Assembly (NCBI RefSeq): GCF_005876855.1
Contig: NZ_QLAE01000009.1
Location: 62,001-126,000, forward strand
DNA from: Stutzerimonas nosocomialis
GTDB lineage: Bacteria; Pseudomonadota; Gammaproteobacteria; Pseudomonadales; Pseudomonadaceae
Reading direction: 5' to 3'
Length of the DNA: 64,000 nt
Positions within the stretch are counted from its first letter, which is position 1. Each line of letters opens with the position of its first letter. The notes under the pieces are model-generated. The model searched no databases, was not told where the DNA came from, and worked only from the letters and a program-made list of their open reading frames with translations. The position numbers and the translations under genes were made by a program. Below are positions 11,982 to 31,329 of the stretch, piece by piece.

Positions 11982-12246
11982 GGCGGCCTTCCTTTCGGGA
12001 GCACAGGGGGTGTCGTCCGTCCATGCCGGCAGGATGCGGCGGCATTCGGGTCCTATCAGGAGATCGGCAGAGCGGGACGAAACATGAGACGGCCTGCGAC
12101 CTGTCGTCGCAGGCCGGGCGTGCAGCGAGACGGCCGGAACAGGCGGAAACGGGCGGTTCACCCAGACGCCGGCCGTCCTGCTGCGCGGCTTTGCGCAGCG
12201 GGCGGTGGCGATCGAACAGACGGCTACGAACGCTCGGGCGGGCGCC

Positions 12247-13854
12247 TCAGTCCTCCGTGCGGCAGCGCCCGGCCCGGCAGCGATGGGCCTCGTGCTTGGG
12301 GTCTTCCTGCAGGAGCTTGCGGGTGACGCCGTTGGTCCAGCCGAAGCCGTCCTGCAGCGGATACTCGCCGCCGCCGGCGTGCTCGGCGGTGGGCCGCAGC
12401 ACGTATTTCTCGACCAGCTTGCTTTCGCGCTCGAACAGGTCCGAGACGATCATCAGCCAGCGCTTCTCGATCTCGATGGCCAGGTCGTGGTGCCCGTAGT
12501 GCTGCAGGCCGCGGATGCCCATCCACTGCAACGGCGCCCAGCCATTGGGACGGTCCCATTGCTCGCCGCTGCCGCTGACTTCGGTGGTGGAGAGCCCGCC
12601 CGGCGCCAGCAGCCGCTCGCGCACGATCCGCTCGACCTTCGCCGCCTGCTCGGCGGTGGCCAGGTGGACGAACAGCGGCACCACGGTCGCGGCGGTGAGG
12701 TTCTCGCGCCGCACGTCGCGCTGCCAGTCGTAGTCGAAGTAGGCGCCCACCTCCTCGTTCCACAGGTAACGGTCGATGCCTTCGCGGCGGCGATCGGCCC
12801 GTTCGCGAAAATGCGCCGCCGACTCATGGTCGCCCTTGATCTCGCTCAGGCGCGCGATCTGCTGCTCGAGCTTGTACAGGAAGGCGTTGAGGTCCACCGG
12901 CAGCAGGCGGGTGGTGCGAATGGTGGACAGGTCGGAGGGATCGTCCAGCCAGCGTGAGCTGAAGTCCCAGCCGGACTCGGCGCCGGCCCGCAGGTCAAGG
13001 TACACGTGGTGCGGTGGCCGGCCGGAGCGCGCGGCGGTTTCCACGTCTTCCCAGTAGGATTCGTCGCGCGGGGTATCGCGGTCATCCCAGTAGCGGTTGA
13101 GCAGCACGCCGTCGGCCATGCACACGCAACGCCGGTGGCTTTCGCCCGGGCGCAGCACCTCGGAGCCGTCCATCCAGAACGCGTGTTCCTTGCGCAGCTG
13201 CGGCAGGTAATCGCTGGCGCGGCGGATGCCGTGTTCCTCGAACAGGTCGGTCATCAGCGCGAACACCGGCGGCTGCGAACGGCTCAGGTAGTAGGAGCGG
13301 TTGCCGTTGGGCACGTGGCCGTAGGTGTCGATCAGGTAGGCGAAGTTGTCGGCCATCGCCTGCATCAGCTCGCACTGCCCGCTTTCGTCCAGGCCGAGCA
13401 TGGTGAAGTAGGAATCCCAGTAGTACATCTCGGTGAAGCGGCCTCCCGGCACCACGTACTCATAGGGCAGCGGCAGCAGCGAGGAACGCGGCGGATGCTC
13501 GGTGGGCGAGCGCGTCAGCACCGGCCAGAGCCGGTCGATGTGCTCCTCCAGGGTGTTGTCCGGGTCGGCGACAAACTCGCGCGGCTCGAACTCGAACACG
13601 CTGAAGTGCTCGTGCACGAAGGCCGCCAGGTCGAAATCCGGGCGCGAGCGCTGGGAACGGTAGGCGTCGAGGATCTGCTCGGGATAGCGCTTGGGCGCGC
13701 AGTCGGCGAAGGTCTTGCTGTCTTCGAAGATGCGCTTCATCTGCACTTCGACGAAGAACTCCTGGTAGCGGTCCGCCGGGCTCAGGGTGTCCGCGCCGGC
13801 GACCTTGCGCAGGGCCTTCTCGAACGGGTCGACCAGATGATTCTCGCTATTCAC
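12247..13854 (-). CDS. treF: Cytoplasmic trehalase, GH37
   Basis: Hydrolyses trehalose to two glucose molecules. The roughly 535-residue protein carries both GH37 signatures, [15 protein letters not shown] and [13 protein letters not shown], plus the glycine-rich C-terminal [17 protein letters not shown]. There is no signal peptide, so the TreF (cytoplasmic) rather than TreA (periplasmic) assignment fits. I prefer the GTG at 13854, which overlaps the upstream SDR stop as GTGA; a GTG at 13872 in frame is the alternative. Coupling to an SDR suggests joint expression, perhaps in osmotic or sugar metabolism. Confidence 0.9.
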
Positions 13855-14615
13855 TGTTCGCTGTAGTTCCACAGCAGACCTCCATCGACGAAAAGCGTGG
13901 TGCCGGTAATGTAGTCGGCGTCATCCGACACCAGGAAGGCCACCGCGCCGGCCACATCGCGGGGCTGGCCGAGCCGGTTGGCGGGAATGTTGCCCAGCAG
14001 GTTGGCGAGCTTGTCGGGCCGGTTCATCAGGTCGCGGTTGATCGGCGTCTCGATGGCACCGGGCGCGACGTTGTTGATGGTGATGCCCAGCGGGGCGAGC
14101 TCGATGGCCAGGTTGCGCATCATCATCTTCAGCCCGCCCTTGCTGGCGCAATAGTCGGTGAAGTTCGGCATCGGCAGCTCCTCGTGGACCGAGCTGTTGT
14201 TGACGATGCGTCCGCCACGACCGGTTTCGACCAGGTGACGGGCGAACGCCTGGGTGATGAAGAACGGGGCGCGCAGGTTGACGTTCAGTATCTGGTCGTA
14301 GTCCTGCGGCTCGGCATCGAGGAAGGCCGCGTTCTTCTGCATCCCGGCGTTGTTGACCAGGATGTCGAGGCGCCCCATCTGTCGGATCGCCTCCTCGACC
14401 AGCCGGCGGCAGGCGGACACCTCGGCCAGATCCGCCGGAATGACGCAGGCGCGCCGTCCCAGTGCACGGACCTCTTCGGCGGTTTCCCGGCCTTCGTCCT
14501 CGCTGCGCCCGGTGACGACGATATCCGCGCCTTCCTGCGCCAGACGCACGGCGATGCCGCGGCCGATGCCCTGGGTGCTGCCGGTGACCAGCGCCACTTT
14601 GTTCTCGAGCCTCAT
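13851..14615 (-). CDS. SDR-family oxidoreductase (glucose 1-dehydrogenase-like)
   Basis: A 254-residue classical SDR with TGSTQGIGRG (cofactor loop), NNAG, NNSSVHE (catalytic Ser) and YCASKGG (YxxxK). The C-terminal [16 protein letters not shown] and the pattern EELPMPNFTDYCASKGG resemble proteins annotated as glucose 1-dehydrogenase. The ATG at 14615 follows GGAGAG at five bases. It overlaps the trehalase start by four bases. If the glucose specificity holds, trehalase product would be its substrate; that link is inference. Confidence 0.85.
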   Translation of the reverse strand: MRLENKVALVTGSTQGIGRGIAVRLAQEGADIVVTGRSEDEGRETAEEVRALGRRACVIPADLAEVSACRRLVEEAIRQMGRLDILVNNAGMQKNAAFLDAEPQDYDQILNVNLRAPFFITQAFARHLVETGRGGRIVNNSSVHEELPMPNFTDYCASKGGLKMMMRNLAIELAPLGITINNVAPGAIETPINRDLMNRPDKLANLLGNIPANRLGQPRDVAGAVAFLVSDDADYITGTTLFVDGGLLWNYSEQ

Positions 14616-14885
14616 CAATGCTCTCCGTCGATGCTGATTGCAGGTGGGGTAATGATCTGACGAAGGTGCATCGGTGCCGTTCCACGGTTCGGCGCCGGCG
14701 AGCGGCCCAGGACCCGCGAGCAAAGCGCCCAGCCCAGAGATGACGGCGCCTGGGCCGCATCGGCGCCTGATGAGCCCGTTTTTGCAGAATATTGCCGGAC
14801 GCCCCGGGCGGGGCTTGCGATGGCCACGCCAAGGCCTGGCGGGCAACCGCGCGCCCGATGGAACACTGCGATCGGGACGCGGCGA

Positions 14886-16847
14886 TCAGGTCCCGATCAC
14901 GCCGCCGTCGTCCTTGGTGATCAGCACCGTGGTCGAGCGCGGCCGGGTGCTGCCGTCGCTGGCCGGGTAGCTCAACGACGGGTGCTGGATGTTGATCCAT
15001 AGGGCGCGGTAGTCGGGGCTCCAGGTGATCCCGGTGATCTCGCAGCCCCGCGGGCCGACCAGAAAACGCCGCACCTCGCGGCTTTGCGGGTCGGCGCAGA
15101 GCAGCTGGTTGCAGCCCATCGCCTGCATCGCCGGGTCGCGGTCCTCGTAGTCGGTCTCGATCCACAGGCGTCCGGCCCCATCGAACGCCAGCCCATCGGG
15201 CGAGGAGAACAGGTCGCCATTGATGGTGCCGATCAGGTTGGCCGGCACCGCTTCGCCCGTGGCGGTTTTCGCGCCTTCCGGCTCGCCGGCGAGGAGGAAG
15301 AACTCCCAGCTGAACTCGGTGGCGGTCGGGTCGGCGCCCTCCTCGTTCCAGCGGATGATGTGCCCGTGCAGGTTGGCCGGACGCCGGTTGGCCTCGTTGG
15401 CCGGCTGCCGGGTGCCGCGCCCGTCGTTGTTGGTCAGGGTCACGTAGACCTCGCGGGTGGTCGGGTGGACCGCGACCCACTCCGGCCGGTCCATCGGCGT
15501 CGCCCCCAGCAGGTCGGCCGCGGCCCGGGCGTTGAGCAGCACCTCGGCCTGGCTGGCGAAGCCGTTCTCGGCGGTCAGCCCGCCTTGGCCATGCACCAGG
15601 GGCAGCCAGCGGCCACGGCCCTCGGCGTCGAACCGGGCGACATAGAGCGTGCCCTCGTCGAGCAGGTCGCGGCTGGCCCTGGGGTTGGCCGCGTCGAAGC
15701 GTCCGCTCGGGACGAACTTGTAGATGTATTCGCCCTTGGTGTCGTCGCCCGAATAGAACGCCATGCGCCCGTCCTCGCCCAGCGAGAGCACCGAACACTC
15801 GCGGCAGTAGCGGCCGAACGCGGTGCGCTTGACCGGCTGGCTGTCCGGATCGAAGGGGTCGAGCTCGACCACCCAGCCGAAACGGTGGGGTTCGTTGACG
15901 TAAGCGCCGTGGGGCTGGCTGGCGTCCGGGGTGGCATCGAAGCGCGCATCGGCGGTCTCCCAGCCGTAGAGCTTGCTCATCCCCTCGTTGGCCAGCCCGT
16001 AGCGCTTGTGCGAGACGCGGCGGGCGAAGTCGGCCTGATCGTGGTTGACGAAGTAGTTGTGCCAGTTCTCTTCGCAGATCAGGTAGGTGCCCCAGGGCGT
16101 GAAGCCGCTGGAGCAGTTGTTGAAGGTGCCCAGCACCTCCCGTCCGGACGGATCGGCGACGGTCTTCATCGCCTCGTGTCCGGCCAGCGGGCCGCTGATG
16201 CGCATCGGCGTGAAACCCGAGATGCGGCGGTTGTAGCGCGACGGCATGACCCGCTGCCATTGCCCGTCGGCATCCTTCCTCACCTCGATGACGCTGGCAC
16301 CGTGGGCGGCCTGTTCCTTCTTGACCTCCTCGAGCGGACGCCTGCCGTCACTGAGCGTCATGCCGTTGGGGTGCAGCGTCGGATTGACGTACTCGTGGTT
16401 GATGACCAGCAGGCCGTGGCTGTCCGGCGCCTCGGGGAACGGGAAGAAGTGCATGCCGTCGTGGTTGTCGCCGGCCTGTCCGAGCTGCGCCTGCCAGTCG
16501 TCGCGGGCGTCCGGACGCCAGGCCGGCGCATCGGGCAACACCGCATCGCCCCAGGAAAAGAACGGCCGCGCCCGATAGCCTTCGGGTACCAGCACCTGGT
16601 CGAAATCATCGGCCTGCTGCACCGCCACGCCCTGGAAGCCAAGCAGCGGGCTGGCGGCCAGGCTGCCACGGCAGGCGGCCAGCCCGCCCCCCATGAAGCC
16701 GAGCGCGGCGAGCGTCAGGCTGCCCTTGAGCAGGTTGCGCCGGCCGCTGTCGATCATCTGCTCGAGGCTCGGGTTGCGGCTGGGGTTGATCGCCTGGTCG
16801 TCGTGGGCGGCCAGGCGGGCGTGAAAGGCTTCGAGATCCTGCTTCAT
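14886..16847 (-). CDS. PhoX-type (DUF839) phosphatase, Tat-exported
   Basis: A 653-residue member of the PhoX/DUF839 family of metal-dependent phosphatases. Residues 37-58 look like a twin-arginine signal (GRRNLLKG followed by a hydrophobic stretch), implying folded export to the periplasm. Family blocks include PEAPDSHGLLVINHEYVNP, SGFTPWGTYLICEENWHNY, GWVVELDPFDP and DGLAFDGAGRLWIETD. PhoX enzymes release phosphate from many phosphomonoesters. It is the last gene of the minus-strand run TBDT-phytase-exbB-exbD-tonB-phoX, 52 bases after tonB, which supports a role in organic-phosphate use. Confidence 0.87.
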   Translation of the reverse strand: MKQDLEAFHARLAAHDDQAINPSRNPSLEQMIDSGRRNLLKGSLTLAALGFMGGGLAACRGSLAASPLLGFQGVAVQQADDFDQVLVPEGYRARPFFSWGDAVLPDAPAWRPDARDDWQAQLGQAGDNHDGMHFFPFPEAPDSHGLLVINHEYVNPTLHPNGMTLSDGRRPLEEVKKEQAAHGASVIEVRKDADGQWQRVMPSRYNRRISGFTPMRISGPLAGHEAMKTVADPSGREVLGTFNNCSSGFTPWGTYLICEENWHNYFVNHDQADFARRVSHKRYGLANEGMSKLYGWETADARFDATPDASQPHGAYVNEPHRFGWVVELDPFDPDSQPVKRTAFGRYCRECSVLSLGEDGRMAFYSGDDTKGEYIYKFVPSGRFDAANPRASRDLLDEGTLYVARFDAEGRGRWLPLVHGQGGLTAENGFASQAEVLLNARAAADLLGATPMDRPEWVAVHPTTREVYVTLTNNDGRGTRQPANEANRRPANLHGHIIRWNEEGADPTATEFSWEFFLLAGEPEGAKTATGEAVPANLIGTINGDLFSSPDGLAFDGAGRLWIETDYEDRDPAMQAMGCNQLLCADPQSREVRRFLVGPRGCEITGITWSPDYRALWINIQHPSLSYPASDGSTRPRSTTVLITKDDGGVIGT

Positions 16848-16899
16848 GTCGACTCGCGTGTAGTGAATGGGCGGTGGGGCCGGCGGCTGCGCGCCCGCC

Positions 16900-17715
16900 T
16901 CACTCGATGCGGTAGCGAAAGGTATTCTTCACGCCGGCCACCGCCACGCTGCGGCCGTCGACGACCCGGGGCTGGTAGCGAAACCCCTTGGCGGCGTTGA
17001 GCGAGGGGCGCACGAACAGCGGATGACACTCGCCCAGTACCTGCGGGTCTTCCACCCGGCCCTGCGTGTTGACCGTGTAAATCACCGTGCATTCGCCCTC
17101 GATGCCCTTGTCCAGCGCGCGCTGCGGATAGGCCGGCGCCTGCTTGACCAGCGGCTCGTACTGGCGGCTGGCGGCGGCCGCAGCCTGACGCGCCTGTTCG
17201 GCGGCCGCCTCGGCCCGGGCTTGAGCCTGGCGCTCGGCCTGCAGGCGCTGTCGCTCGGCCTGGGCGAGACGTTCTTGCGCCTGACGTTCACGTTCGGCCT
17301 CGGCCTGCCGTTCGCGCTCGCGCGCTGCCTGGCGCTGCTGCTCGGCACGCTTTCGCGCCAGGGCCGCCTCTTCCAGGCGACGCTGCTCGCGCTGGGGGTC
17401 GACCTTCGGCACGTCCGGTTCCGGCGGTGCCTGCACCCGTGGCTCGGGCACGGGTTCGGCTTCGGCTTCGGCCACCACGGGCGTCGCTGGCACCGGCTCG
17501 GGCGCGGCCTCGGGCAACGGCCTGGGCAGGCTGACCAGCTGGGTCTTGAGCAACGGGGGCGCCGCCGGCGCGGGCGACTCGAAGGAGCCGCCGTGCAACA
17601 ACAGGGCGAACAGACCCAGGTGCAGGCCGAGGGTCAGGCTCAGCGCGGCGGCATGGCTGCGCCAGGCGCCATCGACGGCCGGCAGCGCCACGCCGCGCAG
17701 GGACAGGCTGCTCAT
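16900..17715 (-). CDS. tonB: TonB energy transducer with a charged helical linker
   Basis: A 271-residue TonB protein. An N-terminal membrane anchor (residues 22-44, HAAALSLTLGLHLGLFALLL) is followed by a short Pro-rich piece. Then comes a long Ala/Glu/Arg/Gln-rich segment (about residues 105-185, REQRRLEEAALARKRAEQ and similar) that should form one long helix. The C-terminal TonB domain contains YPQRALDKGIEGECTVIYTV and GFRYQPRVVDG. The linker differs from the Pro-Glu/Pro-Lys linker of classical TonB and resembles that of TolA. The gene starts one base after the exbD stop; it presumably powers the TonB-dependent receptor two genes further upstream. Confidence 0.9.
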   Translation of the reverse strand: MSSLSLRGVALPAVDGAWRSHAAALSLTLGLHLGLFALLLHGGSFESPAPAAPPLLKTQLVSLPRPLPEAAPEPVPATPVVAEAEAEPVPEPRVQAPPEPDVPKVDPQREQRRLEEAALARKRAEQQRQAARERERQAEAERERQAQERLAQAERQRLQAERQAQARAEAAAEQARQAAAAASRQYEPLVKQAPAYPQRALDKGIEGECTVIYTVNTQGRVEDPQVLGECHPLFVRPSLNAAKGFRYQPRVVDGRSVAVAGVKNTFRYRIE

Positions 17716-17716
17716 C

Positions 17717-18160
17717 TCAGGGCGCCTCGGTGATCAGGCCGATCTGGGACACCCCGCCGCGCTGCAACGCGGCGATGCCGGCGACCACCACGCCATAGTC
17801 GGCCCCCTGGTCGGCGCGGATGTAGACCTGGGTATCGCTGCGCGCGGCGACCACCGCCGAGACCTTGGCACTCATCTCGGCCAGGTCCACGGCGCTGTCG
17901 GTCTGCTGCTCGACGTTCAGCTCGTTGCCCAGGTTCCAGTAGTAGCTGCCGTCGGCCTTCACCGAGAGCGTGAGGACCTGCTGCCGGCTGTCGGCGGGCA
18001 TCGCCTCGGCGGCCACCTTGGGCAGTTCCAGCTTCACGCCCTGGGTCAGCATTGGCGCGGTGACCATGAAGATCACCAGCAGCACCAGCATCACGTCGAT
18101 GTAGGGCACCACGTTCATTTCGGCTTTCGGGCCGTGCTTGTGCGGGGGACGAACCAGCAT
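17717..18160 (-). CDS. exbD: ExbD/TolR biopolymer transport protein
   Basis: A 147-residue proton-channel subunit. The single membrane helix with the family signature (AEMNVVPYIDVMLVLLVIFM) contains the functional aspartate at about residue 21. A periplasmic domain ends in VVVAGIAALQRGGVSQIGLI. With PYIDVMLVLLVIFMVTAPML it is closest to the TolR-like branch. The ATG at 18160 is preceded by GAGGAG; the longer frame overlaps exbB and is not used. It lies ten bases after exbB and one base before tonB, forming a complete Ton motor. Confidence 0.92.
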   Translation of the reverse strand: MLVRPPHKHGPKAEMNVVPYIDVMLVLLVIFMVTAPMLTQGVKLELPKVAAEAMPADSRQQVLTLSVKADGSYYWNLGNELNVEQQTDSAVDLAEMSAKVSAVVAARSDTQVYIRADQGADYGVVVAGIAALQRGGVSQIGLITEAP

Positions 18161-18170
18161 GACGTTCTCC

Positions 18171-18875
18171 TCAAGCCGCCGCGGCGACCACCGGGACACC
18201 ATGCAGACGCCGGTGCAGACGCGCCTGCAGCTCGTTGCCGAAGCTGTAGTAGCGGGCGATCAGCCGTTGGCTGCGCGTTGCGAAGCGGTTGTAGGCCATC
18301 ACCGCGGGAATCGCCGCGAACAGGCCGATGGCGGTGGCGATCAGCGCCTCGGCGATGCCCGGCGCCACGGTGGAGAGGGTCGCCTGCTGCACCTGGGACA
18401 GGCCGAGGAAGGAATTCATGATCCCCCAGACGGTGCCGAACAGGCCGATGTAGGGGCTCACCGAACCCACCGTAGCGAGGAACGGCAGGCCCTTCTCGAG
18501 CCGTTCCTCCTGCTCGGCGATGGCCACGTAGAGGCTGCGTTCGACCCCTTCGATCACCGCCTCCGGTGAGATGCCCGGCTGGTGCTGCAACTGGGAAAAC
18601 TCGCCGTAGCCGGCCAGGAAGATGCGCTGCAGGCCGGCATCGGCGTGCGCCGCCTGGTTCTCGCGGTGCAGCCGGGCGAGGTCGCCGGTCTCGCGGAACT
18701 GACGCTGGAAGCCGTTGAGCAGACGTTCGCTGCGCCGCAGCAGGCTGCCGCGCTGGATGATGAGGTACCAGCTGATCAGCGAGGCCAGCACCAGGATGAG
18801 CATCACCGCCTGGACCACGGGGCTTGCGTCGCGAACCAGACCCCAGGCGCTCATGTGTTCGAGGCTGCTGTGCAT
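18171..18875 (-). CDS. exbB: ExbB/TolQ proton-channel protein
   Basis: A 234-residue MotA/TolQ/ExbB-family protein with three membrane helices: VVQAVMLILVLASLISWYLI, PFLATVGSVSPYIGLFGTVW and EALIATAIGLFAAIPAVMAY. The GLFGTVWGIMNSF motif is the family hallmark. The start at 18875 (MHSSLEHMSAWGL) has AGAGGAGA six bases upstream. Length and the MHSSLEHMS N-terminus are TolQ-like, but the following tonB rather than tolA shows that it serves a TonB motor. It lies 81 bases after the phytase stop; a lone CTGTCAT on its own strand (18940-18946) is too little for a Pho box. Confidence 0.92.
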   Translation of the reverse strand: MHSSLEHMSAWGLVRDASPVVQAVMLILVLASLISWYLIIQRGSLLRRSERLLNGFQRQFRETGDLARLHRENQAAHADAGLQRIFLAGYGEFSQLQHQPGISPEAVIEGVERSLYVAIAEQEERLEKGLPFLATVGSVSPYIGLFGTVWGIMNSFLGLSQVQQATLSTVAPGIAEALIATAIGLFAAIPAVMAYNRFATRSQRLIARYYSFGNELQARLHRRLHGVPVVAAAA

Positions 18876-18956
18876 GGTTTGTCTCCTCTGCCGCCCTGAC
18901 CGGGCGGCTGTTATTGGATGAGGTTGCAATTGCGCTTTGATGACAGCCGGCGCGGC

Positions 18957-20888
18957 CTAGGGCAGCTTCAGCGCCTCGGCGACGGCGCTCCAGGGCAGGT
19001 ACTTGTAGTTCTGCCGACCCTCGGGCATGCGCTTGCGCCCGTCCTGGACCACCAGCATGCCCCGGCTCCAGATACCGCCGAGGTTGGCCGAGGTGACCTC
19101 CAGCCCGTCGGTCTCGGAGACGCCATCGATGCCCCGCTCGGCGTTCAGGCCGATGCGGAAGGCGCCGCGCACCGCATAGGGCGCCTGCCCGTCGAGCACC
19201 ACGAAGCTGTCGTTGCCCTGGCTGGAAATCACCAGATAGTCGCCGCCCTCGCCCCGGTAGAAGGCCAGCCCTTCGATGTCGGCCTGCACCTCGGCACCGG
19301 CGTCGATGACCTTCTCCAGCACCGCCGGCGCGTCGCCGCGCGCATCGAGGGTCCAGACCGCGACGTCTTCCTCGCCAATGAACAGGCGCTGGTTGCGGTC
19401 ATCCGCGACGCACCCTTCGGGCTGGCTGGCGGTGGCGAATTCGCGCATCAGCTCGGCCTCGACCTTCCCGCTGCGACCGTCGAGGCGGTACTGCAGGAAG
19501 CGTCCGCTCTTGTCGTTGGGGATGGCGTGGATCGCCTCGGCGGCATCCTTGAACAGGCACAGCCCATAGATGTCGTCCAGCGGCGTGGGCAGCCAGCCGA
19601 GGTCGCTCAGCTCGCCGCTGCTGCGGTCGATGGCGAACAGTTGCAGGCCGTTGTGATCGCGATGGCTGGCGACGGCGAGGTCCACCGTGGCCTGCCCCAG
19701 GCGAAACCCCGGACGCACGTCGACGTTGTTCAGGCGACCCACCCGCAAATCCTGCAGCGCGCGGCCCTGCAGGTCGTACACCTGCAGCCCACCCTGCTTG
19801 TCGGTGCCCAGCACGCGGCTCGCGGCCGGGTCCTTCGGGTGAATCCAGATCGCCGGGTCATCGGCCGCATCGCCCAGGCTCGGCACCGGCTCGGTCTGCA
19901 CCTGGGCCGGCAGCACCGGCAGGGGCGCTGCGGCCCGGGGAGCCTCCGGCCGCCAGTCGAGCAGCGCACGGTGCTGGCCGTTGTCATCGCCGATCGACAG
20001 GGCCAGGCCCTGCCCGGAGAGACGCGCGCTGAGCTGTTCGGGCTCGGCCAGGCCCACCAGTTGCAGCGCCGGTTCGGCCTGCCAGCGCTGGCCGTCGCGG
20101 CGGTAGCGATGCAGGGCGCCGGCGGCGGGGTCGAGCGCCAGCACCGCGCCCGGCACAACGGCGACGCCGGCGAGGGCCTCGGCGATGTCGCCGAAGGGCT
20201 GCACCAGGGCGACCGGCTGGCGGACCAGATCGGCTTCTGGATGCGCCGCGTAGGCCCAGAGGCCGACCGCTTCCTCGTTCACGTAGAGCAACTCGTCGCG
20301 GTCGTCGACCTGGCAGTACTCGCTGGCCGGCGGCAGGCTCAGGCGCCGCACCCGCAGCGGCTCGCGCAAGGGCGTCTGCGCCGTGGCCACCAGCCACTGC
20401 TCGCCGATGCCCTCCTCGCCGACCAGAAAGAGGAAGGCGTTGTCGCCCTGGTCGCGATACAGGCACAGCCCGTCGACCTTGAAGTCGGGACGCGGCAGGT
20501 ACACCGGATCGCTCCAGCTGCGGTCGCGGGCCGAAAGCGCGAGCAGCACCGGCTGCTGACGGTCGACGTCGACGGTCGCCACCAGCAGCCCATCGGCGGA
20601 GGCGCGGTGGTCGAGCGCGCCGAAGGTCCCGGGCAGCGCGCTCAGGGTGGCGCCGGCGGCGTCAAGCAGGCGCAGCCCCTGGCGCTTGCTGGTCGCCAGC
20701 CGATCGGCGCCGGGCCAGAAGCGGTCGTCGGCCAACAGCTGGGCGGCCTCGATGCGCATCGGTTCGGCGGCCTGCCAGGGTTCGCTCTTCAGCGGGGCCG
20801 CAACAGCGGCGCCGGCCGGCGCGCCCAGCAGGGCGAAACTGGCCAGCAGTGCCCGCGCGAGCGGCTGGCGGGAAAAAGGAAGGTTCAT
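18957..20888 (-). CDS. Two-domain beta-propeller phytase
   Basis: A 643-residue exported protein (signal peptide to about residue 30) predicted to hydrolyse phytate in a calcium-dependent manner. The C-terminal half (about 330-643) is a complete beta-propeller phytase domain with the entry motif DDPAIWIHPKDPAASRVLG, DKQGGLQVYDLQG, NNVDVR and QPEGCVADD...RLFIGEED. The N-terminal half (about 35-325) repeats the pattern in divergent form (EYCQVDDRDELLYVNEEAVG), as in dual-domain phytases, where the incomplete domain widens substrate use. It lies 57 bases after the TonB-dependent receptor, on the same strand and probably in the same transcript. Confidence 0.9.
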   Translation of the reverse strand: MNLPFSRQPLARALLASFALLGAPAGAAVAAPLKSEPWQAAEPMRIEAAQLLADDRFWPGADRLATSKRQGLRLLDAAGATLSALPGTFGALDHRASADGLLVATVDVDRQQPVLLALSARDRSWSDPVYLPRPDFKVDGLCLYRDQGDNAFLFLVGEEGIGEQWLVATAQTPLREPLRVRRLSLPPASEYCQVDDRDELLYVNEEAVGLWAYAAHPEADLVRQPVALVQPFGDIAEALAGVAVVPGAVLALDPAAGALHRYRRDGQRWQAEPALQLVGLAEPEQLSARLSGQGLALSIGDDNGQHRALLDWRPEAPRAAAPLPVLPAQVQTEPVPSLGDAADDPAIWIHPKDPAASRVLGTDKQGGLQVYDLQGRALQDLRVGRLNNVDVRPGFRLGQATVDLAVASHRDHNGLQLFAIDRSSGELSDLGWLPTPLDDIYGLCLFKDAAEAIHAIPNDKSGRFLQYRLDGRSGKVEAELMREFATASQPEGCVADDRNQRLFIGEEDVAVWTLDARGDAPAVLEKVIDAGAEVQADIEGLAFYRGEGGDYLVISSQGNDSFVVLDGQAPYAVRGAFRIGLNAERGIDGVSETDGLEVTSANLGGIWSRGMLVVQDGRKRMPEGRQNYKYLPWSAVAEALKLP

Positions 20889-20945
20889 CGAGCGGTAAAT
20901 CCTTTTGACGAGCGGCGCCCACGCGGCGGTGGGCGCCTTCCGGGA

Positions 20946-23414
20946 TCAGAAGTGGGTGAAGGTCAGGCCGAGCCGATAGGTCGGGCCGTACTCTTCGTAC
21001 TGGGCGTTGTAGGCGCGGCGGCCGGTGTAGACGTAGTAGGACTCGTCGGTGAGGTTCTGCGCCTCGAAGGTCAGCTGCAGCCCGGGGGTGATGAAGTAGC
21101 CGGCGCTGAAGTCGACGAACAGCTGCTTGTCGGCGTAGAGGTCGTGGGCCGGATCGTCGATCGCCGCGACCTGCATCAGGTAGTCGGACTTGTAGTTGGC
21201 CGACAGGCGCAGGCTGAGCCGGTCGTTCTCCCAGCCGAGCATCAGGTTGCCGACCGTGTCGGACTGGTTCGGCAGGTCGATGCTGCGGCTCAAGCCCTGG
21301 CCTCGGACCTTGGCGTCGGAGCGGCTGAAGGTGGCGTTGGCGCCGAGCAGCAGGCCGTCCCAGGGCGCCGGCAGCCAGCTGAATTTCTGCGAGTAGGCCA
21401 GCTCGATGCCGTAGAGCCTGGCCTTGTCGCCGTTGGCGTAGCTCAGCGCCTCGTCGAAACCGGCCCAGTCGCCAGTGCCGGCCAGGTCGGTGTCGTAGAC
21501 GAAATTGTCGATGTCCTTGTAGAAGGCGAAGGCCGAGACCACGCCCGCGCGTCCCATGTAGTGCTCGATGCCCAGGTCGACGTTCATCGACTCCAGCGGC
21601 TTGAGGTTCGGGTTGCCGAACTCGGCGTCGTTGCCGTCGATCACGAAGCCCGGCGCCAGCTGGCCGAACGTCGGCCGCACCACCGTGTTGGTCCAGGCCG
21701 CACGGAGCTGGGTGTCGGGGTCCAGCTGATAGCGCGCATGCAGGCCCGGCAGCCAGTGGTCGTAGCGCTTGCTGCTCTGGGCCGCCTCGAAGGCGCCGTC
21801 ACGGATGCCGGTGCCCTTGGCTTCGAAACGGGTGCCCTCGTAGCGCAGGCCCGCGATCAGTCGCCAGTCGTCGATGTCCATCGTGTTCATCAGGTAGGCG
21901 GCGTTGATGTCTTCGCTCATCCGGAAGTCGTTCCAGCGCGACTCCTCGGCGTCGTGGAAGGCGTCGCGGTCGAGCCCGCCGATCAGGCGTTCGATGGCGC
22001 CCGCGCTCAGCCCCGGCCCGAAACGGCCCAGCGCGTAATCCACCTGGCCGCGCTGGAAGCCGTCCATGCCGATGGTGTTGAAGTTGTCGTAGACCCAGAC
22101 GTCGGTGTCGTTGTCCTTGTCGCGGCGGCTGAGCTTGCCGCCGAACTTGAGCTGCGAGGCGTAGCCGGCGAGCAGGTAGTCGCGGGCCAGGTCGAGCTTG
22201 ATGTTCTTCTCGGTGTCGGTGGTATCGGTCTTCTCCCACTCGACCTCGTCGAGGGTGAAGCTGGCCGGGTCGTAGAACGAGGGGTCGACCACCAGACGCG
22301 GCTTGCGGGTGCCGCTGTAGCCGGCATCGGTGAAGTCGCCGACGAAGGTGGCGCCCGCGATGCCACCGGGATTGCGCTCGCTCGAACGGCTGTAGCCGGC
22401 CTGGCCGTTGAGCGTCCACAGCCCCATCTGCCGCTCGCCACCGAACACGTAGGACTTGATCTCCTGGGTCTCTTCGCGCGATTTCAGCTCGCGCCAGCCC
22501 TCGGCATCGCCCAGTTCGCCGGGCAGCTGCGCATCGTCGAACTCCACCCCGGCGGCGTTGCGGGTCTCGGTGTCCTTGAAGCGGCTGTAGAGGGTGCGCA
22601 GGTAGTAGCTGGAGACGTCGTCGGGCTTGTAGTCGAAGTTCAGGCCGAACCCGGTGCGCTCACGGGTGATGCGGTAGTCACGCTGTTCGACCTCCTCGAG
22701 GCGGGCGCCGTTCTCGAAGTCCCAGGCACCGCCGGTCTCGACGTTGTCGGAGCCGAAGTCGCGCTTCTGCCAGCTCAGCGCGGCGGCCACGCCGAAGTTG
22801 TCCACCCCGTCGCCCAGGCTGAAGCGCTCGCTGATGGCGCCGGAGAACTTCGGGCTGCTCCGGTCGGTGTTGTCGTCGTAGCTGCCCTCGCCGCTGAAGG
22901 TGTAGAACAGCCCGTCATGGTCGAACGCCGAGAGGCTCTGAACCTCGATCGTGCCGCCGAGGGAGTTGGCGTCCATGTCCGGGGTCAGGGTCTTGACCAC
23001 CGACAGCGACTGCACCAGTTCGGCGGGCAGCACGTCCAGCGCCACGGCGCGACGGCCGCTTTCCGGCGCCGGCACCAGGGTGCCGTTGATGGTCACGCTG
23101 TTGAGGTCGGGGCCGATCCCGCGCACGCTGACGAAGCGGCCTTCGCCCTGGTCTCGCTCGACCGAGAGCCCGGGGATGCGCTGCAGCGCCTCGGCGGCGT
23201 TGTCATCGGGCAGCTGGCCGATGGCGTCGGCGTGCACCACGCTCCTGACGCTGTCGGAGCTGCGCTGGTCCTTGAGCGCCGCGTCGATGCTCGCGGCCTG
23301 GCCGATCACGTCCAGGTGCTCGACCTCCTCGGCGGCCCAGCCGCTGTTGATCGACGTGGCGATCGCCACCGCCAGAATGCTGATCCTGAAACCCGCCTTG
23401 CGCTGAACCTTCAT
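20946..23414 (-). CDS. TonB-dependent outer-membrane receptor, Xanthomonas/Caulobacter type
   Basis: An 822-residue outer-membrane transporter. It has a signal peptide (to about residue 24, SINSGWAAEE), a plug domain with the TIGR01782-like block SVRSVVHADAIGQLPDDNAA, EALQRIPGLSVERDQGEGRF and VSVRGIGPDLNSVTINGT, and a beta-barrel ending in YRLGLTFTHF with a terminal Phe. A candidate TonB box (VEHLDVIG) follows the signal peptide. I chose the ATG at 23414 because GGGAGG lies eight bases upstream; an ATG six bases earlier is too close to it. Position next to a phytase and a Ton motor suggests phytate or inositol phosphates as the ligand; that is inference. A Pho-box-like promoter precedes it. 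Confidence 0.9.
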   Translation of the reverse strand: MKVQRKAGFRISILAVAIATSINSGWAAEEVEHLDVIGQAASIDAALKDQRSSDSVRSVVHADAIGQLPDDNAAEALQRIPGLSVERDQGEGRFVSVRGIGPDLNSVTINGTLVPAPESGRRAVALDVLPAELVQSLSVVKTLTPDMDANSLGGTIEVQSLSAFDHDGLFYTFSGEGSYDDNTDRSSPKFSGAISERFSLGDGVDNFGVAAALSWQKRDFGSDNVETGGAWDFENGARLEEVEQRDYRITRERTGFGLNFDYKPDDVSSYYLRTLYSRFKDTETRNAAGVEFDDAQLPGELGDAEGWRELKSREETQEIKSYVFGGERQMGLWTLNGQAGYSRSSERNPGGIAGATFVGDFTDAGYSGTRKPRLVVDPSFYDPASFTLDEVEWEKTDTTDTEKNIKLDLARDYLLAGYASQLKFGGKLSRRDKDNDTDVWVYDNFNTIGMDGFQRGQVDYALGRFGPGLSAGAIERLIGGLDRDAFHDAEESRWNDFRMSEDINAAYLMNTMDIDDWRLIAGLRYEGTRFEAKGTGIRDGAFEAAQSSKRYDHWLPGLHARYQLDPDTQLRAAWTNTVVRPTFGQLAPGFVIDGNDAEFGNPNLKPLESMNVDLGIEHYMGRAGVVSAFAFYKDIDNFVYDTDLAGTGDWAGFDEALSYANGDKARLYGIELAYSQKFSWLPAPWDGLLLGANATFSRSDAKVRGQGLSRSIDLPNQSDTVGNLMLGWENDRLSLRLSANYKSDYLMQVAAIDDPAHDLYADKQLFVDFSAGYFITPGLQLTFEAQNLTDESYYVYTGRRAYNAQYEEYGPTYRLGLTFTHF

Positions 23415-23464
23415 GGCCATAGCCTCCCTTGCGTCCCCCGGCACGGCGCCGGCAATGGAGGCGA

Positions 23465-23498
23465 ACGGTAGGAACGCCCGATGACACTTCGGTGACGG
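23465..23498 (-). promoter_or_regulatory. Candidate PhoB-dependent promoter of the receptor-phytase-Ton-phoX operon
   Basis: On the minus strand 23498-23481 reads CCGTCACCGAAGTGTCAT. These are two seven-base units (5/7 and 6/7 to CTGTCAT) with a four-base spacer, hence the 11-base repeat that PhoB binds. Ten bases downstream is TACCGT (23470-23465), a weak -10 at the spacing expected of PhoB promoters. The receptor ATG is about 67 bases from the box. Confidence 0.6.
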
Positions 23499-23694
23499 CA
23501 ACCGGCCATGAACGCCGCTCCGGCCTTCCAGCGGCATGCGGAGTGGCTTTTTTGAGCCGAAACGACCTGTCGCAGCGCTCGGCGCGGCCCCTTGCGCGCT
23601 CCTCGACGGCCACTGCCGCAACACCCGGGCGCCCCCATGGCCCATCGGGTGCCGACGAGGGTGAAAAAGCACTGGTCCGATTCGACCCCCCGCG

Positions 23695-23723
23695 CTGTCA
23701 CCGAAGCGTCATGGCCCTGTGCT
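23695..23723 (+). promoter_or_regulatory. Candidate tandem Pho box upstream of the GGDEF-like/AraC pair
   Basis: Three units at an exact 11-base period: CTGTCAC (6/7), GCGTCAT (5/7) and CTGTGCT (5/7). The first two share the ten-base core GTCACCGAAG with the minus-strand box 197 bases away. The downstream gene starts at 23764. No good -10 is visible. Confidence 0.45.
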
Positions 23724-23763
23724 TCCGTGACGGCTGGCGCACGCGCGCCCTACTGGAGAGCCG

Positions 23764-24678
23764 ATGAGATCCTTCCTGAAACTGCATTCGCTGACGCTGA
23801 TCGGACTGACCGTGGCCGCCAACCTCGGCCTGCAGATCTACCTCGCCGTCGGCGACATCAAGACCTGGGCCGAGATCGACTGGATGGATGTCGCCGGCGA
23901 AGGTGGCTCGGCGTTGCTCGCCTTGTTGTGGCTGACGATGCTGCTGCACAGCCGCCCGGCCGGACGCGTCACCCGACTGCTCGCCCTCGGGCTGTGCTGC
24001 ATCTTCCTGTCCTGGTGGATGGATACGCTGGACGAATTCATCCGCCTGCCCGACTCGGTCGCCTGGACCAACTGGCTGGAAACCGCGCCGATGCCGATCG
24101 GCCTGCTGCTGCTCACGGCCGGCGTCTTTCACTGGCACCGCGAACAGCAGGCGATCAACCTGCAGATGAGCAAGCGCGAGCGACTGTTCCGCGAGCATCG
24201 CCTGTTCGACAAGCTGACGCCGCTGGGCGCGGCCGAATACCTGCGCCAGCAGGTGCAGCTGGCCCTGCAGCAGGCCCGCCAGCTGCAACAGCCATTGTCG
24301 CTGGTGGCCATCGACCTCGACGACTTCAGTGCGATCAACCACCGCTTCGGCCATGCCGAGGGGGACGAGGTGCTGCAGGCCACCGCCCAGTTGCTGCTGC
24401 TCAACCTGCGCCAGCAGGACCTGCTCTGCCGGCTGGCCGGCGATCGCTTCGTCGCCCTGTTGCCAGCCACCGGCGAAAGCCAGGCCCGGCAGATCGCCGA
24501 GGAACTCAGGCAGGCCGTGGCGAGCCTGGCCCATCGCAGCCGGCAACACGGCGAGCGGCTGCAGCTGAGCGCCAGCGTCGCGACGGTGATGGCCTTCGAC
24601 GAAACCCCGGAGCGCCTGCTCGAACGGCTGAACCTGGGCATCGCCCGGGCCAAGCAGGGGCTGGCCCGCTGTGCCTGA
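23764..24678 (+). CDS. Membrane protein with degenerate GGDEF domain
   Basis: A 304-residue protein with four hydrophobic segments in the first 125 residues (for example LTLIGLTVAANLGLQIYLAV and GLLLLTAGVFHW). A GGDEF-fold domain follows (about 140-300), recognisable from LVAIDLDDFSAINHRFGHAE and GDEVL. The active-site loop reads LAGDRF where an active enzyme has GG(D/E)EF, so diguanylate cyclase activity is doubtful and a binding or scaffold role is more likely. GGAGAG precedes the ATG. The stop overlaps the GTG start of the AraC regulator by eight bases. Confidence 0.82.
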   Translation: MRSFLKLHSLTLIGLTVAANLGLQIYLAVGDIKTWAEIDWMDVAGEGGSALLALLWLTMLLHSRPAGRVTRLLALGLCCIFLSWWMDTLDEFIRLPDSVAWTNWLETAPMPIGLLLLTAGVFHWHREQQAINLQMSKRERLFREHRLFDKLTPLGAAEYLRQQVQLALQQARQLQQPLSLVAIDLDDFSAINHRFGHAEGDEVLQATAQLLLLNLRQQDLLCRLAGDRFVALLPATGESQARQIAEELRQAVASLAHRSRQHGERLQLSASVATVMAFDETPERLLERLNLGIARAKQGLARCA

Positions 24679-25705
24679 AACGCCGATCGCCGCCGGCTAC
24701 GACTGCGACAGTCGCTTCATCGCCGCGCATTATCAGCCCGCCACGCTGATCGATCTGGCGCTGTCGCGCGGGATCGACAGCCATTGCCTGCTGCGCGGTT
24801 GCGAGCTGTTCCACGAGGACATCGTGCGGGGCCAGGCACGGGTCAGCCCCCGGCAGTTCCTCACGCTGATCGGCAATGCCGAACGCCTGCTGGGCGCGGC
24901 CGACAGCAGCTTCCTGTTCGGCCAGCGTCTGCTGCCGGGGCACTATGGCGAGGCCAGCCATGCGCTGCTGCATGCGCTGGACCTGCAGCAGGCGCTGGAC
25001 CATCTGTGCCGCTTTCGCGCCGTGCTCAGCCCGCTGCTGCGGCCATACCTGCTGTGCGACGAGCAACAGGCGCATCTCTACTGGCTGGACAGTTGCGGCA
25101 GCGGTGCGCAGCAGCGTTTCGTGCTGGAGGCGGGAATGACCGCCGTGGTGTCGATGGCGCGCCGGCTTTCGGGGGAACCCCTGCCGTGGCGCTTCCATCT
25201 CGCCCATCCGCAGCCCCGCCAGGTGGAGCAGTACTGGGTGCATCTGGGCGAGCAGCTGAGGTTCGACCAGCCGCTGAACCGGATGAGCCTGCCGCGCGAA
25301 TACCTGCATCGCCGCTGGCCTCATGCCTCGAGCACCGCGGGCGGCGTCGCGCAGCAGGGCGCACAGGCCCAGCTCGATGCCCTGGGCTGGTCGGCGAGCT
25401 TTATCGATCAGCTGCACGATCACCTGCGCGAGCACATCCGCTCGGCGCTGAACCTGGAGCGCGTGGCGCTGGCCTTCGGCATGAGCCCGTCGTCGTTCAA
25501 GCGGCGGCTGCAAAAGCACGGCACCCACTTCCAGGAACAGCTCGACCTCGTGCGCACGCACGTGGCGATTCATCTCTACCAGGCCAAGGGGTATACCAAC
25601 GAGGAAGTGGCCGCCTACCTGCGCTTCAACGACACCACCAACTTCCGGCGTTCGTTCAAGCGTTGGACGGGCCTCGTGCCCAGCAGCCTGAGGCAGCTGC
25701 TGTAG
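24671..25705 (+). CDS. AraC-family transcriptional regulator (OruR-like architecture)
   Basis: A 344-residue regulator. The N-terminal Arabinose_bd-type domain (residues 15-205) contains CLLRGCELFHEDIVRGQARV and LLPGHYGEASHALLHALDL. The C-terminal AraC DNA-binding domain (about 245-340) has two helix-turn-helix units: LERVALAFGMSPSSFKRRLQ and TNEEVAAYLRFNDTTNFRRS, ending in FKRWTGLVPSSLRQLL. It starts with GTG inside the end of the GGDEF-like gene, so the two are translationally coupled and may form a sensor-regulator pair. Possible targets include the divergent receptor-phytase operon. Confidence 0.87.
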   Translation: MPETPIAAGYDCDSRFIAAHYQPATLIDLALSRGIDSHCLLRGCELFHEDIVRGQARVSPRQFLTLIGNAERLLGAADSSFLFGQRLLPGHYGEASHALLHALDLQQALDHLCRFRAVLSPLLRPYLLCDEQQAHLYWLDSCGSGAQQRFVLEAGMTAVVSMARRLSGEPLPWRFHLAHPQPRQVEQYWVHLGEQLRFDQPLNRMSLPREYLHRRWPHASSTAGGVAQQGAQAQLDALGWSASFIDQLHDHLREHIRSALNLERVALAFGMSPSSFKRRLQKHGTHFQEQLDLVRTHVAIHLYQAKGYTNEEVAAYLRFNDTTNFRRSFKRWTGLVPSSLRQLL

Positions 25706-25760
25706 GCAGGGTTAATTCGTGGGGACTAATCCCAACCCTGTTTCCGGACCGCAGAAAAAG

Positions 25761-25783
25761 AAAAACCCCGCCGAAGCGGGGCT
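25761..25783 (-). terminator. Intrinsic terminator of rsmY
   Basis: On the minus strand CCCCGC-TTCG-GCGGGG is followed by TTTTTCTTTTT. The same hairpin lies 60 bases after the AraC stop on the plus strand and may also stop that transcript. Confidence 0.88.
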
Positions 25784-25882
25784 TTGCAGACTGTATCCTG
25801 ACATTCCTTAGTCTTGCGCCGTCCTGGCGCATCTCCAGTGCTTGTCCCTGTTGATAGGTGCGCTTCCTGCGCGAAGTCCATG
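25761..25882 (-). ncRNA. rsmY: RsmY-type regulatory small RNA (CsrA/RsmA antagonist)
   Basis: A roughly 122-nt RNA read on the minus strand. It holds seven GGA motifs, several displayed in hairpin loops: GCGC-AGGAA-GCGC and TGCGCC-AGGAC-GGCGCA are perfect, and GAC-TAAGGAAT-GTC is shorter. The 5' part (ATGGACTTCGCGCAGGAAGC) resembles the start of known Pseudomonas RsmY as I remember it. A -10-like TAATCT (25894-25889) sets the start near 25882, and a hairpin with a T-run ends it near 25761. Two GacA-type palindromes lie upstream. Such RNAs titrate RsmA/RsmE and so relieve translational repression. The assignment to RsmY rather than RsmX or RsmZ rests on this 5' resemblance and length. Confidence 0.88.
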
Positions 25883-25938
25883 AGCAGAAGATTAACGACC
25901 CGTTCATTGAACGAATAGCAGCCAACTGCGGCAGTCTT

Positions 25939-25997
25939 TGTAAGCGATTGCTTACAGGGAACCTTCCGTGGCTCAGGCCTGTAAGTAATGGCTTACT
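25939..25997 (-). promoter_or_regulatory. Two GacA upstream activating sequences of rsmY
   Basis: Two 18-base palindromes match the GacA operator TGTAAG-N6-CTTACA: a perfect one at 25939-25956 and one with a single mismatch at 25980-25997. Their centres are 41 bases apart (about four helical turns), near -66 and -107 from the predicted rsmY start. Confidence 0.88.
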
Positions 25998-26088
25998 CAA
26001 CGTGCACATCTATGACCGGGGTGATGGCTGAAACGTTCCGAAACATGGCCAAATAATTTCAATATGCCCTCAGATTAAGCCGATATCC

Positions 26089-27864
<1,776 letters not shown>

Positions 27865-28000
27865 GGAGAGAGCCTCGCAGATCGTGGCGCCGGGCCGGCT
27901 GGCCGCAGCGTTTTCCCGAGTCTAGCCGACACCGACAGGCGCCCGAAGCGTCTAGTTGTGACCAATCGGTTCCGCCTCTTCCAGGCCGGTCACCCATGAA

Positions 28001-28022
28001 AAAGCCCGCCGAAGCGGGCTTT
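28001..28022 (-). terminator. Intrinsic terminator after the second acyl-CoA dehydrogenase
   Basis: Stem AAGCCCGC/GCGGGCTT (28002-28009 and 28014-28021) with a four-base loop and a T-run on the minus strand, 17 bases after the stop codon of the gene at 28039. It shows that the first and second dehydrogenase genes are separate units. Confidence 0.87.
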
Positions 28023-28038
28023 GTGGCGCTGCCTTTTC

Positions 28039-29832
28039 TCAGAAGACGAACTGGTCGGCCGCAAGCTTCATCAGCGTCTCGCCGCCGGCCTCGATCGACG
28101 CCCGGTGGGCCGCGGTGCGCGGCAGCAGACGGCTGAAATAGAACTCGGCGGTGACGATCTTCGATTGGTAGAAGGCCGCATCGCCCTCGCCGGCCTGGAG
28201 CTTGGCCTGGGCGACCACCGCCATGCGCAGCCAGAAATAGCCGAGGACCAGGTAGCCGCAGTACATCAGGTAGTCGACCGAAGCCGCGCCGACCTCGTCG
28301 GCGTTCTTCATCGCCGCCATGCCGATGCGGGCGGTGATCGCCCCCAGGTCCTGGTTCAGCTCGGCGAGCCGCTGGACCTGTCCCTTGAGTTCGGGATGTT
28401 CGGCGTTGGCCTGGCAGAACCTGTGGACCAGCTTGGTGAAGCCCAGCATCAGCTTGCCCTGGCTGCCCAGGACCTTGCGGCCGAGCAGGTCGAGCGCCTG
28501 GATGCCATTGGTGCCTTCGTAGATCGGGGCGATGCGGCAGTCGCGCATCAATTGCTCCATGCCCCACTCGCGAATGTAGCCGTGGCCGCCGAACACCTGC
28601 ATGCCGAGGCTGGTGACCTCCAGTCCGGTATCGGTCATGAAGGCCTTGCAGATGGGCGTGAGGAAGGCCAGCAGCGCCTCGGCTTCCTCGCGCTTGCCCG
28701 CCTCGGGGCTGTGCAGCTGATCGAGCAGCTGCGCGGTGAAATAGGCCAGCGCGCGGTTGCCCTCGTTGAAAGCCTTCATGGTCAGCAGCATGCGCCGCAC
28801 GTCCGGGTGGACGATGATCGGATCGGCAGGCTTGTCGGGAAACTTCGCACCGGTCAGCGAGCGCATCTGCAGGCGCTCCTGGGCGTACTTCACCGCGCCC
28901 TGGTAGCTCGCCTCGCCGTTGCACAGCCCCTGCATGCCGGTGCCGAGGCGCGCATGGTTCATCATGGTGAACATGCAGTTGAGGCCCTTGTTCGGTTCGC
29001 CGATGAGAAAACCGCGGGCGCCGTCGAAGTTGAGCACGCAGGTGGCCGAGGCCTTGATGCCCATCTTGTGCTCGATCGAGCCGCAGGCCAACGCGTTGCG
29101 CTCGCCGGCATTGCCGGCCGCATCGGGCAGGAACTTGGGCACGATGAACAGCGAGATGCCCTTGGTGCCGGCCGGTGCGTCGGGCAGCTTGGCCAGCACC
29201 AGGTGCACGATGTTCTCGGCCAGGTCGTGCTCGCCGGCGGAGATGAAGATCTTGGTACCGCTGATGGCGTAGCTGCCGTCGGCCTCGGGCACCGCACGGG
29301 TCTTGATGATCCCCAGGTCCGTGCCGCAGTGGGGCTCGGTCAGGCACATGGTGCCGGTCCAGCGGCCCTCGGTCATGCGGCTGAGGTAAGTGGACTTCTG
29401 CGCCTCGCTGCCGTGGGCGCCGATGGCGGCCATGGCGCCGTGGGTCAGCCCCGGGTACATGCCGAAGGAGGTGTTGGCCGAGCCGACCATTTCGCCGATC
29501 ACCAGGCCCAGCGAGTGCGGCAGACCCTGGCCGCCATACTCGGGCGTCGAGGCCAGCCCCATCCAGCCGCCCTCGGCGTACTGGGCGAAGGCTTCCTTGA
29601 AGCCCTTCGGCGTGGTCACCACGCCATTGTCGAAATGGCAGCCTTCCTCGTCGCCGCTGCGGTTGAGCGGCGCCAGCACCTGCTCGCAGAACTTGGCGCC
29701 CTCCTCCAGGATCGCACCGACCATGTCCGGGGTCGCATCCTCGGCGCCGATGGCGGCATAGCTGGCGTGGAAATCGAACACGTCGTCGATCAGAAAGCGC
29801 ATGTCGCGCAGGGGAGCCTTGTACTCGGGCAT
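28039..29832 (-). CDS. Acyl-CoA dehydrogenase, about 600-residue DmdC/FadE-like type
   Basis: A 597-residue paralogue of its neighbours on both sides with the same N-terminus (MPEYKAPLRDMRFLIDDVFD). The flavin-domain motifs are [37 protein letters not shown] and MQVFGGHGYIREWGMEQLMRD, and the active-site Glu region is [14 protein letters not shown]. The C-terminal extension (about 470-597) is kept. It has its own terminator and its own upstream gap of 117 bases, where I see no PsrA-like site, so regulation probably differs from that of the third copy. Chain-length preference cannot be told from sequence. Confidence 0.92.
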   Translation of the reverse strand: MPEYKAPLRDMRFLIDDVFDFHASYAAIGAEDATPDMVGAILEEGAKFCEQVLAPLNRSGDEEGCHFDNGVVTTPKGFKEAFAQYAEGGWMGLASTPEYGGQGLPHSLGLVIGEMVGSANTSFGMYPGLTHGAMAAIGAHGSEAQKSTYLSRMTEGRWTGTMCLTEPHCGTDLGIIKTRAVPEADGSYAISGTKIFISAGEHDLAENIVHLVLAKLPDAPAGTKGISLFIVPKFLPDAAGNAGERNALACGSIEHKMGIKASATCVLNFDGARGFLIGEPNKGLNCMFTMMNHARLGTGMQGLCNGEASYQGAVKYAQERLQMRSLTGAKFPDKPADPIIVHPDVRRMLLTMKAFNEGNRALAYFTAQLLDQLHSPEAGKREEAEALLAFLTPICKAFMTDTGLEVTSLGMQVFGGHGYIREWGMEQLMRDCRIAPIYEGTNGIQALDLLGRKVLGSQGKLMLGFTKLVHRFCQANAEHPELKGQVQRLAELNQDLGAITARIGMAAMKNADEVGAASVDYLMYCGYLVLGYFWLRMAVVAQAKLQAGEGDAAFYQSKIVTAEFYFSRLLPRTAAHRASIEAGGETLMKLAADQFVF

Positions 29833-29949
29833 GTTGTTGTTCTCCAGAAGGCAGCGCCGGGCAGTTATCCAGCCGGCAACCTACTGCTGGGGAGCGGGGT
29901 CAACAATCACATCATGGGCGCTGAATGCGCCGCCATAACCACCGGTTCG

Positions 29950-31275: not shown

Positions 31276-31329
31276 TTTGCCTGCATTCGCTCAGCTGTAC
31301 ACCTTTCTTGTCCCGCGCGTGAAACAGGC

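Follow-up and report, generated by a model that had tools for sequence, protein, structure and literature searches.

We analysed a 64,000-nucleotide stretch of the Stutzerimonas nosocomialis genome (contig NZ_QLAE01000009.1, positions 62,001 to 126,000), hereafter the window. Within it is a locus encoding a TonB-dependent receptor, a phytase, a motor with a TonB-type transducer, a PhoX-type phosphatase and a divergently transcribed membrane protein. The locus is real, widely conserved and of the phytate type. We consider it probable that the locus serves phytate use under phosphate starvation, with PhoB acting at three promoters and the receptor working with a Tol-derived motor, the phytase and an accessory phosphatase.

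Briefly, PhoB would act before the divergent gene, the receptor and phytase genes, and the motor-TonB(-PhoX) genes. Read-through from the second of these units into the third is likely. The receptor would carry phytate, or its metal salts, across the outer membrane. Force would come from a duplicated TolQ-TolR stator, via a transducer carrying a TonB domain at its C-terminus. The phytase, presumably periplasmic, would then remove phosphates. An accessory phosphatase, PhoX here and a purple-acid-type enzyme in other species, would remove further phosphate. The freed phosphate would enter through the cell's phosphate transporters.

A conserved phytase locus

The original prediction described six minus-strand genes in a row. 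The open reading frame (ORF) coordinates, and gaps of 57, 81, 10, 1 and 52 bases, bear this out. The Pfam domains are a TonB receptor barrel and plug, Phytase in two stretches, MotA_ExbB, ExbD/TolR, TonB_C and PhoX. For the receptor, the phytase and TonB, NCBIfam gives the same assignments as Pfam. The receptor scores 619.2 bits on TIGR01782 TonB-Xanth-Caul (cut-off 310) and the phytase 267.9 bits on PF02333 (cut-off 21). Phytase residues 328-639 align with solved phytases, including 3amr at E 2.3e-60; we take these to be Bacillus enzymes. A plus-strand ORF opposite the receptor and phytase genes (18918-23471) is presumed to be an artefact of high G+C.

A locus scan of genome contigs confirmed 420 relatives. 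The best 80 of these 420 loci were kept and are the basis of all counts out of 80; hence, the set is biased to close kin. The order receptor, phytase, motor recurs in 80/80 loci as far as contigs reach, so the run of genes is not a chance arrangement. Downstream of the phytase gene, a TolQ-type gene was found in all 80 loci, a TolR-type gene in 79 and a TonB gene in 78. The absences are contig ends, in L089 (TolR-type and TonB) and L098 (TonB). The divergent gene, which lies outside the predicted six-gene run, is a conserved seventh member, found in 73/80 loci. The remaining seven contigs (L078, L080, L081, L082, L085, L089 and L133) stop within or soon before the receptor gene. The closest phytase in the set is that of Stutzerimonas azotifigens 115A1 (L063), at 93%. 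A rough lipobox pattern fits the phytase in 43 loci.

Conservation holds for receptor, phytase and motor but not for PhoX, found in just 33/80 loci. Hence, PhoX, the second phosphatase of the original prediction, is accessory rather than core. It scores 530.4 bits on PF05787, against a cut-off of 24, and has no NCBIfam match at 0.001. Ten loci instead encode a purple-acid-type phosphatase (L076, L094, L096, L097, L099, L101, L103, L104, L107 and L113). None has both, and 37 have neither, some of these being cut by contig ends. In all ten, the divergent gene and the receptor gene flank the purple-acid-type gene, which is on the strand of the former. Three of the ten proteins were tested and have Metallophos and Pur_ac_phosph_N domains. 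Phosphatase type follows lineage, so the phosphatase counts are not independent. One purple-acid-type locus, L096, is of Pseudomonas type; its record bears the name Pantoea sp. Ap-967, which may be incorrect.

Phytase was also sought in 398 genomes drawn evenly from the phylum, and stretches of about 16 kb, some shorter, were taken around the hits. These genomes overlap with the 80-locus set; hence, the two sets of counts are not independent. Phytase was found in 43/398 genomes: our own, 9 of the same family, 12 other gammaproteobacteria and 21 others. All nine same-family genomes have the divergent gene and the motor. No motor was found near the phytase in the fetched stretches of the 33 non-family genomes. 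In these stretches, the divergent gene (>200 bits) occurs in 9/12 other gammaproteobacteria and 0/21 others. Eight of these 21 have a receptor match of at least 500 bits beside the phytase, in Alphaproteobacteria-type loci. Among 58 near relatives phytase was found in 35, including 30 of 36 same-genus genomes (our own excluded). All 30 same-genus loci have TolQ-type and TonB genes, accompanied by PhoX in 27 and a purple-acid-type gene in three. In one same-genus locus, L248 (G035:C1:1495500-1512000), the divergent gene, receptor, phytase and PhoX are each in pieces and a TolR-type match is missing; decay and sequencing error are indistinguishable in this case.

Table 1. Genes and Pho-box-like sites of the locus, in window coordinates.
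Feature	Position	Strand	Basis
PhoX-type phosphatase, accessory gene	14886..16847	-	PF05787; twin-arginine and LAAC lipobox-like motifs by eye
TonB-type transducer, TonB_C at residues 193-270	16900..17715	-	PF03544
TolR-type motor subunit (originally predicted as ExbD)	17717..18160	-	Cut-offs, tree
TolQ-type motor subunit (originally predicted as ExbB)	18171..18875	-	Cut-offs, tree
Weak Pho-box-like site CTGTCATCAAAGCGCAAT, before motor genes	18929..18946	-	8.2 bits, rank 19 of 127,966
Two-domain beta-propeller phytase	18957..20888	-	PF02333 in two stretches
TonB-dependent outer-membrane receptor, TonB-Xanth-Caul	20946..23420	-	TIGR01782, Pfam barrel and plug
Pho-box-like site CCGTCACCGAAGTGTCAT, before receptor	23481..23498	-	12.4 bits, rank 3, tied with second
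Pho-box-like site CTGTCACCGAAGCGTCAT, before divergent gene	23695..23712	+	12.4 bits, rank 2 of 127,966
Divergent membrane protein, degenerate GGDEF domain (AGDRF) and RxxD site	23764..24678	+	Pfam GGDEF, 112 bits

Ancestry of the motor

The motor pair was originally named ExbB-ExbD. Equivalog cut-offs and two trees overturn this and assign the pair to the TolQ/TolR type. On NCBI models, the first subunit passes as TolQ (259.9 bits, cut-off 221) and fails as ExbB (171.9, cut-off 206.2). Likewise, the second passes as TolR (137.6, cut-off 127.3) and fails as ExbD_1 (78.7, cut-off 152.95). Besides paralogues from our own genome, the trees included E. coli K-12, 17 of the 80 loci and rows from a further 11 genomes. 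Two of the 20 locus rows (L285 and L286) were assigned by coordinates and are the loci of G340 and G200.

In the TolQ tree (52 rows; one short row was dropped by the program and long branches were flagged), all 20 locus rows group in a single clade with support of 100/99. This clade is sister to Pseudomonadaceae TolQ (86/87). It falls inside a TolQ group that includes E. coli TolQ (98/99), with E. coli ExbB outside. In the TolR tree (53 rows), the 20 locus rows again group together (99/96), beside Pseudomonadaceae TolR (97/92). Here, E. coli ExbD is outside, and the long branch of E. coli TolR was flagged. By these comparisons, the pair is of TolQ/TolR ancestry. Oxalicibacterium and Herminiimonas rows are nested among Pseudomonadaceae in both trees, which suggests that the unit was transferred between lineages.

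The pair does not stand beside TolA, TolB or Pal; a separate tol-pal operon lies elsewhere in the genome (L257). Its neighbours are a TonB_C protein and then PhoX. The TonB_C domain scores 53.8 bits on PF03544 (cut-off 24.6), and the C-terminus matches that of E. coli TonB at 37% over 62 residues. The middle of the transducer was compared by its fraction of Ala, Glu, Lys, Arg and Gln. This is 0.73, compared with 0.80 for our genome's TolA, 0.50 for its TonB of C3 and 0.39 for E. coli TonB. The median is 0.71 for the 73 of 78 loci with a transducer long enough. Two cysteines of the TonB_C domain (C211 and C232 in the L063 protein) are conserved in 88% or more of the 78 transducer rows, possibly as a disulfide. 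A TolQ/TolR-type pair adjoining a TonB_C protein looks like a Tol-derived stator that serves a TonB receptor. The motor may be coupled to the receptor and private to it.

An alternative is that the pair is a spare Tol-Pal stator that sits at the locus by accident, as its ancestry would allow. We consider this highly unlikely. The next gene in line encodes a TonB_C protein rather than tolB or pal, and the pair stays with receptor and phytase in every one of the 80 loci, as far as contigs reach.

Promoters and transcription

The window was scored at 127,966 positions with a matrix of eight E. coli Pho boxes. The original prediction placed a Pho-box-like promoter before the receptor gene, and the third-ranked site lies there. 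Conservation was assessed in 57 of the 80 loci, after crude dereplication at 90%, with a site threshold of 9 bits. Sites were found before the receptor gene in 49/53 loci, the divergent gene in 43/53 and the motor genes in 32/57. Few were found before the other genes (phytase 2/57, exbD 2/57, tonB 0/56, phoX 1/21). Column-permuted matrices gave mean counts of 3.0 (divergent gene), 2.6 (receptor), 3.4 (motor), 3.3 (phytase), 0.7 (exbD), 0.5 (tonB) and 0.2 (phoX). Single permuted matrices peaked at 31, 30 and 23 for the divergent gene, receptor and motor, respectively; none of 100 matched the observed counts at these three places. An earlier matrix that included two sites from our own genome gave similar values (divergent gene 39/53, receptor 49/53, motor 30/57, phytase 2/57, phoX 0/16). 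The sites lie at median distances of 55 (divergent gene), 104 (receptor) and 68 (motor) bases, with narrow ranges. As a check, the matrix found sites directly upstream of both other phoX genes in the genome (L253 and L254). A simple Pho-box pattern, allowing up to three mismatches, was uninformative, giving 223 matches in our own genome and 260 with a reversed control. The conserved sites suggest Pho control of the locus, and expression would respond to phosphate.

The original prediction also proposed a single operon. Part of this stands: the gaps are short and no minus-strand terminator-like site was found in the gaps of the six-gene run. However, with Pho-box-like sites kept before the motor genes as well as before the receptor and divergent genes, a single operon oversimplifies the case. 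Given the weakness of the motor box in the window and the lack of a minus-strand terminator-like site in the gaps, transcription may still read through. Just upstream of the TolQ-type gene's ribosome-binding region, a G+C-rich hairpin (18890-18908) is terminator-like on the plus strand only.

Several observations weigh against our interpretation. The motor box in the window is poor (Table 1). Between the phytase and motor genes, the top-ranked site (18924-18941, plus strand, 12.7 bits) overlaps this box and points away from the motor. A sigma-70 consensus scan of 12000-26000, on both strands, found no promoter-like site. The sister branch in the TolQ tree has support of only 86/87, and its bootstrap had not settled. 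Two further TonB-type genes are present in the genome; hence, the locus motor need not be the only one in use. At E 0.001, no solved structure matches the receptor in sequence, and phytate is no more than its suggested ligand. Finally, one proteome study (PMC5082522) finds no evidence that PhoBR controls phytase in P. stutzeri DSM4166, P. fluorescens SBW25 or P. putida BIRD-1. Its authors suggest induction of phytases by phytate. Its proteomes cover secreted proteins, with whole cells in addition for BIRD-1 alone. A periplasmic phytase could thus have escaped detection in the secreted-protein data. The same study describes a distinctive DSM4166 PhoX that is expressed when phosphate is low and may or may not be the PhoX of our locus.

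The weak motor box raises the possibility of one transcript, running from the receptor promoter through PhoX, with the box decayed and functionless in this lineage. The 8.2-bit score, the short gaps and the lack of minus-strand terminator-like sites between the genes all fit. We lean against this explanation while regarding it as a credible one. The phytase-motor gap has a site of at least 9 bits, at a narrow range of distances, in 32 of the 57 dereplicated loci. In an alignment of the gap from 17 sequences, the window's box is placed where relatives carry stronger boxes, and the window retains CTGTCAT at that position. Alternatively, phytate rather than PhoB might induce the locus, with the Pho-box-like sites of minor importance and the divergent membrane protein joining in sensing. 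Such induction is what PMC5082522 suggests for pseudomonad phytases. A sensing role would also suit the conserved membrane part of the divergent protein, with its invariant polar residues including D42, E46, D87, D90 and E106. We think this improbable, given that relatives keep Pho-box-like sites at three places, each within a narrow range of distances, and that Pfam finds no DNA-binding domain in the divergent protein.

Iron chelates are a common cargo of TonB receptors, and phytate itself binds iron. The receptor might therefore import iron-phytate chiefly for iron, with the enzymes as bystanders in terms of phosphate. That phytate chelates iron is also noted in PMC3400609. We consider this explanation very unlikely. 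The locus has Pho-box-like sites and phosphatases instead, and no Fur-like enrichment was found in 73 promoter intervals (at least 11 of 19 matches in 9/73, against about 24% of shuffled sequences). Iron control of the locus was rejected on the latter basis.

The divergent protein and known systems

The divergent protein has two hydrophobic segments in the window, and between one and four, mostly two or three, across 73 loci. In all 73 of these loci the GGDEF motif reads AGDRF and the RxxD site is kept. Among 44 rows from the further genomes screened, AGDRF is present in 40, the others being GGDRF, SGDCF, AGGRF and one broken copy. RxxD is present in 41 of these rows, with HxxD, KxxD and the same broken copy as the exceptions. 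When aligned with PleD, AGDRF lies opposite GGEEF and RQQD opposite RAID. A role as diguanylate cyclase was rejected, with AGDRF in place of GG(D/E)EF in 73/73 loci. With the altered motif and kept RxxD, a receptor for cyclic di-GMP (c-di-GMP) is more likely than a cyclase. Of 274 genomes drawn from the class, two contain the family at E 1e-40; eight candidates were scored per genome, so misses are possible. Each of the two also has a phytase, which by coordinates is some 4 kb distant in G649. In an equally large class draw (274), phytase was found in seven genomes. Further along the window, at 26089-33185, two acyl-CoA dehydrogenase-type genes (26089-27864 and 31380-33185) flank a second GGDEF-domain gene (29950-31275). 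On the other side, downstream of the locus and beyond a gene judged by eye to be short-chain dehydrogenase-like, is a trehalase gene (12247-13872). Among the 80 loci, only L063 has a trehalase nearby.

PopA and PelD are degenerate GGDEF proteins that bind c-di-GMP; their active-site motif is changed and RxxD is kept. By sequence, the divergent protein shares the changed motif and the kept RxxD site, and it may bind c-di-GMP too. It differs in the AGDRF form of the motif, its own membrane part and its tie to phytase loci. Among the titles listed in a literature search on the motif, none was recognisable as dealing with this AGDRF family.

PMC3400609 describes a TonB receptor beside a beta-propeller phytase in Citromicrobium JL354. 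In that case, and in Alphaproteobacteria-type loci, phytate is likewise the proposed ligand. Our locus has in addition a motor, TonB, an accessory phosphatase, the divergent AGDRF gene and a two-domain phytase. As in ExbBD-TonB systems, a stator pair is combined with a transducer ending in a TonB C-terminal domain, and a dedicated copy is a known theme. According to PMC12204202, duplicated TonBs such as HasB are dedicated to single receptors. The difference is a stator pair that cut-offs and trees place with TolQ/TolR. The stator type is shared with Tol-Pal, as is the helical-type composition of the transducer middle. Unlike Tol-Pal, the locus lacks TolB and Pal, its transducer ends in TonB_C, and the genome has its own tol-pal operon elsewhere. 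PMC12204202 also proposes that TolA derived from a TonB paralogue and reports that E. coli TolA/TonB domain swaps are partly functional, with the C-terminal domain decisive; the word phytase is absent from it. What is new in the locus is the Tol-derived stator and the AGDRF partner.

A broader scenario can be drawn, which we regard as speculative and rather unlikely in full. A duplicated Tol stator would have become a phytate-dedicated motor and spread between gamma- and betaproteobacteria with receptor and phytase. The AGDRF protein, as a membrane c-di-GMP receptor expressed from the same Pho-controlled promoter region, would add c-di-GMP control.

Phytate is a major store of phosphorus in soil, and the route of its uptake by Gram-negative bacteria is unsettled. 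The locus provides a defined receptor, motor and regulator. If our interpretation is true, the locus would be an example from nature in which a TonB receptor is served by a Tol-type stator, and the AGDRF protein would be a testable link from phosphate hunger to c-di-GMP.

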